Assembly (NCBI GenBank): GCA_003133325.1
Contig: PKXA01000126.1
Span: 1,025 to 60,703, forward strand
Direction: 5' to 3'
DNA length: 59,679 nt
Origin: Acidimicrobiaceae bacterium
GTDB lineage: Bacteria > Actinomycetota > Acidimicrobiia > Acidimicrobiales > RAAP-2
Position numbers and translations under genes: made by a program. This document shows positions 47,400 to 50,045 of the stretch, in pieces. The first letter of the stretch is position 1; each line of letters opens with the position of its first letter. The notes below the pieces were generated by a model. That model worked only from the letters and a program-made list of their open reading frames with translations, ran no database searches and was not told the DNA's origin.

Positions 47400-48050
47400 A
47401 TGTTCGATACCAGTGAGACCGACCGGTTGCTCAGCACCACCCGGGCTGTTCGTCGTCGCCTCGATCTGGACCGACCCGTCGAGCCCGAGGTGGTGCTCGA
47501 CTGCCTTCGGCTGGCGGTCCAGGCACCCACGGCCAGTAATGAGCGGAACTGGCGTTGGATGGTGGTGACCGACCTGGCGAAGCGGACGGCGCTGGCCGAC
47601 CTCTACCGCGAAGTCGGAAGCGCCCATCTCGAACGGGCAGCCCAGTCCGAATCCGATTCGCAGACACGCCGGGTGTACGAGAATGCATTTTACCTTTCGC
47701 AGATTCTCGAGCGGGTGCCGGTGCTCGTCATCCCCTGTATCGAGCGGCGGTTCGACAACTCCGGCAACCCGGTAGCGGCCGCTGTTTATGGATCAATTCT
47801 GCCCGCCGCCTGGAGCTTTCTTCTGGCGCTGCGGTCGCGGGGCCTCGGCTCGACGTGGACGACGCTCCATCTTCTCCGGGAGGGTGAGGTGGCCGAATTG
47901 CTTGGCATCCCCGACGATGTGACCCAGGTGGCCCTGTTCCCGGTGGCATATACCGTCGGTGACAAGTTCAAACCGGCACGACGACCACCAGTGGAAGAGA
48001 TCACCTTCTGGGACACCTGGGGCCAGATCCACCCTCCCACAAGTTGCTGA
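47400..48050 (+). CDS. nitroreductase-family flavoprotein
   Basis: FMN-binding nitroreductase of 216 residues. TTRAVRRRLDLDRPV is the N-terminal FMN phosphate-binding motif, APTASNERNWRWMVV the second block, and RGLGSTWTTLHLL the C-terminal block. It resembles the actinobacterial group of unknown substrate. ATG 47400 follows TGGAAGG. A 210-base divergent gap separates it from the LLM gene, and the two flavoproteins may be jointly regulated. Confidence 0.88.
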   Translation: MFDTSETDRLLSTTRAVRRRLDLDRPVEPEVVLDCLRLAVQAPTASNERNWRWMVVTDLAKRTALADLYREVGSAHLERAAQSESDSQTRRVYENAFYLSQILERVPVLVIPCIERRFDNSGNPVAAAVYGSILPAAWSFLLALRSRGLGSTWTTLHLLREGEVAELLGIPDDVTQVALFPVAYTVGDKFKPARRPPVEEITFWDTWGQIHPPTSC

Positions 48051-48161
48051 TGTGGTGACCGGACCCACTTGGCACGAGCCGACCGACTTACACCTGAGCC
48101 AAGGCGCCAGTGGAGGTAAGGGCGAAGCCGGCTGTCCCGAAATTAATTCGGTCTTTGGCTC

Positions 48162-48190
48162 TTCTCAAAGCGACCGCTATTCGATAGAAT
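48162..48190 (+). promoter_or_regulatory. promoter of candidate ncRNA
   Basis: TTCTCA (48162-48167, weak -35), a 17-base spacer and TAGAAT (48185-48190, strong -10) predict a start near 48197. No reading frame begins downstream. Confidence 0.5.
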
Positions 48191-48196
48191 GACAAT

Positions 48197-48461
48197 GAAG
48201 GGTCCTCGGGATCCGGAGGAGGCGGCTTATCGAAACCTCATCAGGATGGTTCATCTTGAGAACGGATTGCAGGGGATAGTCCGGGGCGGCTACTCGGACG
48301 GCTCAGGTAATAAGTAAAAGCAAGCAGCTCGCAGTGGGAGCGTTGTAAAGGCAAGGGGCTCCGAAGCTCCGCTGATTGCCACTCCCCGACTGCAGACCGC
48401 TTCTCGGAGTACAAATGAAGTAAAACGCCCGACCCCCGTCAGTTCGTGGGGCGGGCGTTTT
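48197..48461 (+). ncRNA. candidate structured small RNA
   Basis: About 265 nt between a promoter and an intrinsic terminator, with nested complementarity. Outer stem: GAGGCGG (48219-48225) with CCGCTTC (48397-48403). Inner stem: TGCAGGGGA (48268-48276) with TCCCC (48383-48387) and TGCA (48391-48394). It encloses three hairpins: GTCCG/CGGAC (48279-48283, 48295-48299), GCTC/GAGC (48327-48330, 48338-48341) and GGCAA/TTGCC (48350-48354, 48376-48380) with GGGGC/GCTCC inside. A side hairpin CTCA/TGAG (48237-48240, 48257-48260) sits between the stems. It lacks the signature sequences of RNase P, tmRNA and SRP RNA. A 6S or Ms1-like RNA remains possible. Confidence 0.55.
48422..48461 (+). terminator. 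intrinsic terminator of the ncRNA
   Basis: AAAACGCCC (48422-48430) pairs with GGGCGTTTT (48453-48461), extended by CCCC/GGGG. It ends in four T residues on either strand, so it could act in both directions. Confidence 0.75.
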
Positions 48462-48466
48462 CGCGT

Positions 48467-48932
48467 ACGGTGGCCCCCTGTGCTCCTCACCGGTTGAAGC
48501 GTCACTATTCACCTCCCGGGGCCAACAAGATGGCTCGCCACGGGAGATCCGCGTGCCGCTTGGGCTTCACGACTGAGTTTGCCCCATTGTTGTCGCTGTG
48601 CCGCTCGCGGATCACTGTGCCCCGAAGACGACGGCCAACCAGAGGCGCTCTGGTGTTTGACCATCTGCCCGCAGATGTCGATAGGCGCCTCAGCTCTTGA
48701 CCCGCTGTCGCTCCATTATCGGCAGCCCTCCGGCAGTACCAGGCCACCAGGCTGCGCTAGGGGCGGTACCGCGGCGCCCAGGACATCTGTCCGTGGCCAG
48801 TTTGAAGTCCCGCTGGTGGCCACGGACAACATCCACGATCGGACGGACTCGTCCTGAGATCGACGGCACGTCGGAGTGCCCTCGGTCCGAACCACATGAT
48901 GCCCGGTCCGGAGCGAGGTTCTTGGGTGTCCC
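48467..48932. other. intergenic region
   Basis: About 465 bases between the RNA terminator and the end of the NlpC/P60 gene. Short frames on both strands lack recognisable domains. A T-box-like string at 48759-48774 was considered and rejected. Confidence 0.45.
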
Positions 48933-50045
48933 TCAGGGGTGGCGGCCGTTGGGCATGACAGTGTCGGTGCCCCACTGGTCCAGCGAATTCAATTGGACGT
49001 GATCGCCGGTCGCCTCCACGATCTGTCCTCCGCCGACGTAGAGGGCGGTGTGATCGACTGTGGTCCAGTTGGTCGGATCCGACCCCCAGAACACGAGGTC
49101 GCCGGCCTGGAGATCTGCCATGGCCATCGGCACTCCCGCGGTGTTGTACTGATCATTCGCCACGCGGGCGAAACCCACGCCGGCAGACTCCCACGATGCC
49201 AACGCCAATCCTGAGCAGTCGTAGCCGATCGGGCCGTTCCCACCCCAGATGTAGGGCTTCCCCAACTGGGCGAAGGCGAAGAGGACGGCCCGGTCGCCTG
49301 AGGTCACCGGCTTGATCATCAGTCCCAGGGTCGGTGGCACCGCACCGGCGTCTCCGAACGCCCATGAGGTGCCGTTCTGGTCGACGATCCAATAGCCGTG
49401 ACCGCTTCTCGACGAGACCACCTTCTCCGCCGGGTCGGGGGTGGGTGCGGATCCCATTGAACCGTAGAAGGTGGCGTCCCCGAAGGAGAACACGCCTCCG
49501 TCGGCGGCGATCAACCAGTATCCGGCGCCGTCAGCGGTCGGGGCCATGCCCGCCACCGGCTGCACCAACCTGAGAGAGCCGGTGGAACCATAGAAAGTAG
49601 CGTCGCCGAACGAGAAGATGCCGCCATCACTGGCGATCAACCAGTAGCCCTTCCCATCGGGAGTCGGGGCCATGCCCACCACCGGCCGGTTCAGCACCAG
49701 GCTGCCGGTGGAACCATAGAAAGTAGCGTCGCCGAACGAGAAGATCCCGCCATCACTGGCCACCAGCCAGTAGCCGGCCTTGTCGCGGGTGGGGCTGATT
49801 CCGACGACGGGCTTGGTCGGAGGGGAGGCCAACTGGCCGTAGGAGGCAGTGCCCCCCATGTTCCACACCCCCCCGGTACTCGAGGCCAGCCAGAAGTTGG
49901 CCGGAGTCGGGCTTCCGTCAACCCCCTGCAGGCTGACCGGAACGGCCGCCGATGCAGCCGGGGCGACGCCCAACCCAGTTCCTGCCAGTCCCGTGAATGT
50001 TGCAATCATGAGCGCGGACGCGGCGAACCGATGCCTAGATTTCAC
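48933..50045 (-). CDS. secreted NlpC/P60 hydrolase with GYWL repeats
   Basis: GTG 50045 starts a signal peptide (FAASALMIATFTGLAGTGLG to ASAA). Residues about 40-245 carry five propeller-like repeats, three nearly identical (GYWLVASDGGIFSFGDATF), as in the beta-helix protein at 4632-6794. The C-terminal NlpC/P60 domain has catalytic Cys in YDCSGLALASW and His in VDHTALYVGGGQIVEA. It should cut peptidoglycan stem peptides outside the cell. A GATAAT -10 (50052-50057) ends 7 bases before the GTG, so it is probably leaderless; the longer frame to 50315 has no such support. Confidence 0.88.
   Translation of the reverse strand: MKSRHRFAASALMIATFTGLAGTGLGVAPAASAAVPVSLQGVDGSPTPANFWLASSTGGVWNMGGTASYGQLASPPTKPVVGISPTRDKAGYWLVASDGGIFSFGDATFYGSTGSLVLNRPVVGMAPTPDGKGYWLIASDGGIFSFGDATFYGSTGSLRLVQPVAGMAPTADGAGYWLIAADGGVFSFGDATFYGSMGSAPTPDPAEKVVSSRSGHGYWIVDQNGTSWAFGDAGAVPPTLGLMIKPVTSGDRAVLFAFAQLGKPYIWGGNGPIGYDCSGLALASWESAGVGFARVANDQYNTAGVPMAMADLQAGDLVFWGSDPTNWTTVDHTALYVGGGQIVEATGDHVQLNSLDQWGTDTVMPNGRHP

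Follow-up and report, generated by a model that had tools for sequence, protein, structure and literature searches.

The window, meaning the whole stretch of 59,679 nucleotides of DNA that was analysed, comes from an Acidimicrobiaceae bacterium. On its forward strand, positions 48197–48461 are one copy of a conserved, uncatalogued, multibranched structured RNA family of Acidimicrobiales. The features of this copy and of its upstream region are as follows.

48133–48141, + strand: putative half-site TGTCCCGAA, resembling the right half of a DosR box
48146–48165, + strand: degenerate DosR-like box ATTCGGTCTTTGGCTCTTCT, agreeing with the published consensus at 9–10 of 20 positions
48162–48190, + strand: predicted promoter, with TTCTCA at 48162–48167, a 17-nt spacer and the −10 element TAGAAT at 48185–48190
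48200–48214, + strand: 5' hairpin GGGUCC/GGAUCC, directly after the inferred transcription start
48215–48222, + strand: Shine-Dalgarno-like sequence GGAGGAGG, a motif conserved in homologues
48230–48259, + strand: micro-ORF frame, nine codons to UGA at 48257–48259
48256–48407, + strand: closing helix P1, pairing 48256–48262/48401–48407, 48263–48271/48391–48399 and 48272–48276/48383–48387
48280–48298, + strand: hairpin P2, pairing 48280–48285/48293–48298, with covariation
48300–48380, + strand: P3, pairing 48300–48305/48373–48380, with covariation, and containing P4 and P5
48320–48346, + strand: hairpin P4, pairing 48320–48330/48338–48346, with covariation
48355–48370, + strand: hairpin P5, pairing 48355–48360/48365–48370, with the strongest covariation
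48422–48461, + strand: GC-rich hairpin with UUUU, resembling an intrinsic terminator by folding

The sequence-only reading of this segment had pointed to a TAGAAT element with a 17-base spacer and a weak −35. This promoter is present, and TTCTCA-N17-TAGAAT is the sole promoter-like site across 48050–48950 (0.1 in shuffles). In the alignment, the −10 position is common to the homologues, and transcription would start near 48197. The intrinsic terminator described in the same reading is borne out by folding, since the hairpin at 48422–48461 reaches −27.6 kcal/mol (z −5.0) and is equalled by none of 200 shuffles; its tail is four T only, and a simple T-run scan of the region omits it. Most homologues carry GCGCCCGAUCCCCG...GUGGGACGGGCGC at the matching alignment position. 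An automatic perfect-stem test finds a terminator in 28 of 47 homologues against 33% of shuffles, which is barely above the control because the terminator stem is imperfect. Among the near copies, similarity spans the promoter through to the terminator and then fades outside. The statement that no reading frame lies inside the segment is not strictly true, as a 42-codon frame (ATG at 48189 or 48195, ending in TAA) crosses the 5' part of the RNA. A coding gene was nevertheless rejected here, because this frame is broken in G001 (a 90% identical copy), C45 and C95.

The core consists of P1 in three stacked parts, followed by P2 and then by P3, which bears P4 and P5. In the model-fitted alignment of 47 homologues, 89% of cells pair and compensatory changes occur at 45 of 48 pairs, and 305 cells are two-sided, whereas shuffling gives 86.5 and sliding the structure gives no more than 87. 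Since this alignment had been fitted to the model, covariation was redone on a structure-blind MAFFT alignment, where the two-sided cells number 185 (at most 67 in controls) and RNAalifold gives −52.3 kcal/mol (−10 to −23 kcal/mol for shuffled columns). P1 shows compensatory changes at every pair among the 47 homologues, and these are retained on the MAFFT-only alignment. An example pair of P5 is divided 23:17 between G-C and A-U. The nested 7- and 9-bp stems of the sequence-only reading are the lower and middle parts of P1, and its three enclosed hairpins are P2, P4 and P5; covariation upholds all of them, for the hairpins in both the 47 homologues and the MAFFT alignment. That reading had also proposed a covariance search in relatives, which found homologues whose corresponding stems covary. 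The six near copies by themselves show weak covariation, and the signal came with the distant homologues.

Letter conservation is highest in GGC/GCC of P3, GCA..UGC of P4 and the ACA following P1, and the P3 and P4 motifs are nearly invariant. The whole window RNA folds to −108 kcal/mol, a moderate value relative to shuffles (z −2.5). In the single-sequence minimum-energy fold part of the 5' region is paired otherwise, while the homologues favour P1. A UGUAC/GUACA pseudoknot, hinted at by some homologues, is absent from the genus of the window on inspection of the alignment.

A plain DNA search of the source genome (G000) and 60 relatives found four copies in the former, namely the window copy, full copies on C23 and C45, and a 3'-half copy on C5. 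An orthologous copy on C73 of G004 has the same neighbours as the window copy, a nitroreductase and an NlpC/P60 gene. Further copies among the 60 relatives lie in G001 and on C95 of G004. A covariance model of the core (R1; 48256–48413, six sequences) gave strong matches outside the genus (best E 7e-18). A second model (R2; 12 sequences), for which E outside the genus falls as low as 2.5e-30, detected the RNA in 39 of the 172 GTDB-family genomes, at 1–4 copies per genome. Elsewhere in the order, it also matched seven sampled genomes belonging to four other families. Model R3 gave no match outside the GTDB family in class and phylum samples, and since seven candidates were scored per genome this absence is weak evidence; among 396 sampled phylum genomes, searched with weak filters, the source genome alone matched. 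Where records bearing the RNA are named, they are metagenome-assembled genomes of Acidimicrobiales/Acidimicrobiaceae whose isolate names include palsa, bog, fen, Chersky and Umea, and we take these to be permafrost and peat sites.

Several candidate matches were set aside. Exact-pattern matches in Halopseudomonas, Eremiobacterota and Parcubacteria contigs gave no convincing covariance-model match and are considered chance. The R1 matches L046, L048 and the antisense L039 were also taken as chance, being weak and missing the surrounding anatomy. The 3'-half copies (L033:2856-2998 on C5 of the source genome and L035, at 59673–59711 on C26 of G004) retain P4/P5-like parts and the terminator but are missing the usual promoter and 5' part. 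Both are convergent with an M50 peptidase/CBS gene, and their flank is conserved between the two genomes.

It is extremely unlikely that these sequences are a dispersed repeat or the remnant of a mobile element, devoid of RNA function. Such an origin would account for the multiple copies per genome, the patchy distribution, the 3'-half copies and the transposase-like fragments close to some copies. On the other hand, covariation is strong on the structure-blind alignment as well, the window copy and that on C73 share an orthologous position, and promoter and terminator travel with the RNA. Also, pairs of paralogues with DosR-class and sigma-70-class promoters are maintained in several g9 genomes, and the plasmids and viral contigs searched hold no copy of the RNA. 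A simple repeat is ruled out by the covariation.

The sequence-only reading had offered two identities, a lineage-specific RNA of the 6S/Ms1 kind or a new class, and had suggested an Rfam scan. No family of Rfam 15 matches the window at the gathering score, and eight homologous loci have no relevant match up to E 5. (At one locus, L045:41-141 on the minus strand resembles a TPP riboswitch, with 49.9 bits against a gathering score of 54.3.) In the source genome the 6S model RF00013 scores at best 12.5 bits, at a site other than the RNA locus and below the cut-off of 46.4. 6S RNA was rejected on this result and because the core is branched and is not a long hairpin with a central bubble. The new-class part of the proposal, with its own promoter and terminator, therefore stands on the homologues, the covariation, the conserved signals and the lack of an Rfam match; Ms1 identity is unlikely, given the Rfam result, the branched core, the multiple copies and the varying neighbours.

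A broader possibility is that the order possesses an RNA polymerase-binding RNA of 6S-like or Ms1-like function, and the lack of a 6S match in the source genome would leave room for one. Ms1 and 6S (PMC9130861, PMC4191392) are, similarly, stress- or stationary-phase structured RNAs of comparable size with a long closing helix. This family departs from them in that its core is branched and lacks the central bubble, genomes carry several copies, its neighbours are not conserved and Rfam offers no match. Ms1 has conserved neighbours, a HAD hydrolase and an oxidoreductase (PMC9130861), whereas neighbours of this type are not constant at the ~50 RNA loci, where the one HAD-type protein is found in L098. 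Polymerase binding would also leave the conserved AGGAGG unexplained, and we consider it improbable.

The 5' part of the RNA has conserved elements of its own. A 5' hairpin is present in 39 of 47 homologues, compared to 28.5% of shuffles, and its stem sequences vary. In the stretch 50 to 25 nt ahead of the core, 43 of 47 homologues carry GGAGG, where 2.8 would be expected, and 39 carry the full AGGAGG (0.7 expected). Thirty homologues were testable for a micro-ORF, having an AGGAGG as well as a stop codon within core positions 2–4; with a start codon allowed at a spacing of 4–12 nt, 21 of these carry a micro-ORF that ends at the foot of P1 (shuffled mean 3.2, maximum 8). These micro-ORFs are 8, 9 or 10 codons long and start with ATG, GTG or TTG. 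The start position is ATG or GTG in most homologues, TTG in G001 and on C73 of G004, and TCG in the window copy and C23, so that the micro-ORF of the window copy is probably untranslated. A micro-ORF with a start codon is missing from these two copies and from several distant homologues. In sigma-70-class paralogues the frame ends two codons sooner. A cysteine codon occurs in about half of the 8–10-codon micro-ORFs (MRCRQGDPF, MRLRNGCPF, MDPDCGSS), which may reflect common ancestry only.

The high frequency of AGGAGG and of an in-frame micro-ORF raises the question of whether the RNA is the mRNA of a tiny peptide (6–10 amino acids) which is itself the effector, with the core as a stabilising 3' UTR only. 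This is rather unlikely. The peptide sequences are hardly conserved, unlike the fold, several copies including that of the window have no start codon, and most of the conservation and covariation is held by the core.

The neighbouring genes vary between loci. The window copy has a nitroreductase nearby, and other loci have M50 peptidases, Usp plus HisKA_3, phosphoribosyltransferases, a hydrogenase maturation protease, acetate kinase/phosphoketolase/PPDK or ribonucleotide reductase; at many loci the neighbours have no connection with hypoxia. In g9 genomes, a gene encoding a short protein that begins with MLxYFIAIEPP is frequently found close to the paralogue RNAs. Where the next gene lies near the RNA (43 loci), it has the same orientation in 17 and the opposite one in 26, and it belongs to no constant family; in the window, 520 nt separate the RNA from the next gene, which is on the opposite strand. 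This makes it very unlikely that the RNA is a cis-acting leader, a riboswitch or attenuator of the next gene whose terminator is the switch, even though the terminator immediately follows an aptamer-like branched core, the micro-ORF resembles a leader peptide and a same-strand gene comes next in some loci (L122, L092).

The family promoters can be sorted into classes whose elements keep fixed distances to the core. In the DosR/DevR-type class, the 3' edge of the box is ~34 nt ahead of the inferred start. The ECF-type class, GGAAC-N17/18-GTTGAA, is SigH/SigR-like, occurs in 8 of 50 sequences and agrees with the SigH-type consensus GGAAT/C...GTT (PMC6338062). The sigma-70 class is TTGCAA-N17-TACGAT. 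Most classifiable copies bear DosR-type or ECF-type elements and not a plain sigma-70 promoter. The promoter-class expressions were written after inspection of the upstream regions and the homologues are related, so the promoter shuffle statistics overstate significance. The published DosR consensus TTSGGGACTWWAGTCCCSAA (PMC2275270), used unweighted and fixed beforehand, places its best site within the set interval for 12.5 of 50 sequences, where 3.05 would be expected; this count ignores kinship among the sequences. Good DosR-like boxes overlap the −35 region in a subset of the family (for example C45 of the source genome, L084, L087 and L088), and proximal sites overlapping −35 are common among DevR targets (PMC3029386). 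Judged from these elements, many family promoters seem adapted to respond to low oxygen or oxidative stress.

The DosR-like box of the window copy occupies the place of the homologues' good boxes (centre ~−43) but does not rise above background, and those of C45 (GGGACTTATGGCCC) and C23 (GGGTCTTTAGGCAC) score better. The window contains no other good DosR box, with 4 two-mismatch matches against 9 expected by chance. DosR control of the window copy is therefore uncertain, given the degenerate box. In the alignment, the half-site TGTCCCGAA is common to the window, G001, C73 of G004 and C45. Separately, a direct repeat of CCACTTGTCCCGAAA lies upstream of the RNA in G001 (L036:4025-4100), possibly as tandem DosR half-sites. 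Paired DosR-class and sigma-70-class paralogues are found in g9 genomes (L084, L085, L086, and L087 with a weaker sigma-70-like site). In these genomes (L084–L087, L111), the paralogue with the sigma-70 promoter has a shortened micro-ORF and the other has the DosR box.

The source genome has a DosR orthologue on C129, with 55% identity to Mycobacterium tuberculosis DosR (next best 37%), and its gene adjoins a GAF/HisKA_3 kinase resembling DosS. The genome contains eight exact DosR-box matches, while the reversed pattern matches once; the boxes lie near genes of DosR-regulon type (CBS, Pyridox_ox_2, erythromycin-esterase and AMP-binding). A mycobacteria-like hypoxia regulon can be seen in Acidimicrobiales at L124 (C129 of the source genome), L130 and L132–L134 (C35 and C122). 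Within the family, 38 of the 39 genomes with the RNA have DosR, as do 107 of the 133 without it (Fisher p 0.01), a weak co-occurrence that is confounded by genome completeness and is weakly informative since 145 of the 172 genomes have DosR. The RNA and DosR share a contig in G011 (~7.5 kb apart) and G098 (~15 kb apart).

Taken together, this is a real, uncatalogued structured RNA family, and we think it probable that its members are stress-induced, independently transcribed regulatory RNAs whose core acts on ribosomes or mRNAs under DrrS-like control. At one group of copies, low oxygen or NO would act through a response regulator of DosR/DevR type that binds over the −35 region, and in another group transcription would begin from a promoter of ECF sigma type (SigH/SigR/SigE-like). 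The 5' hairpin would protect the transcript, and the single-stranded AGGAGG would present a ribosome-binding site. In most homologues the 8–10-codon ORF would then be translated, and since its stop lies at the foot of P1 the ribosome would finish beside the branched core and not pass through it. The core P1–P5 would be an effector in trans, most likely on ribosomes or the translation of other mRNAs, and transcription would stop at the GC-rich hairpin. Action in trans is suggested by the lack of a constant downstream gene and by the location of the conservation; we consider a peptide product, binding to RNA polymerase or regulation in cis less likely. Action via ribosomes is inferred because AGGAGG and the micro-ORF are conserved, with AGGAGG as the one pointer to a ribosomal target. 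Stress control is fairly well supported for the family and weak for the window copy. The latter retains the fold, AGGAGG and terminator, but with a degenerate DosR-like box and no micro-ORF start codon it may escape translation and be under weak or different control.

A more specific and quite tentative version is that the family is a new class of ribosome-engaging dormancy RNA, induced by DosR or ECF factors, which captures the 30S subunit through a strong Shine-Dalgarno sequence and a start-to-stop micro-ORF located at the foot of the core. If so, translation would be tuned or ribosomes parked under oxygen lack. What is new is a well-supported, uncatalogued structured RNA family in an order whose RNA biology is scarcely studied. 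Its promoter anatomy links it to the DosR-type hypoxia response beyond mycobacteria, and the conserved ribosome-binding site and micro-ORF near a rigid core suggest a testable link between dormancy and translation. Its paralogues, under promoters of DosR, ECF and sigma-70 type, offer a ready-made comparison of a single RNA across stress circuits.

Dual-function bacterial small RNAs combine a coding with a regulatory role. The family resembles them in pairing a conserved regulatory RNA part with a short ORF that is preceded by a good ribosome-binding site. In contrast, its ORF has only 8–10 codons, its sequence is poorly conserved and its stop coincides with the foot of the core.

The closest parallel in control is DrrS (MTS1338), a DosR-regulated sRNA of M. 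tuberculosis. According to the available portion of its description (PMC5360333), the DosR site of DrrS is 34 bp upstream of the start and overlaps −35, and a 5' stem-loop confers stability. The family shares with it a DosR site over −35 with an edge ~34 upstream, a 5' stem-loop, a precursor of ~270 nt and, in part of the loci, a hypoxia-gene neighbourhood. Unlike the family, DrrS is processed to 108–109 nt and its mature 3' end has no terminator, while AGGAGG, the micro-ORF and multiple copies are features of the family that do not appear in that portion of the DrrS description (PMC5360333). The control of the RNA family thus resembles that of DrrS as far as promoter and 5' anatomy indicate.
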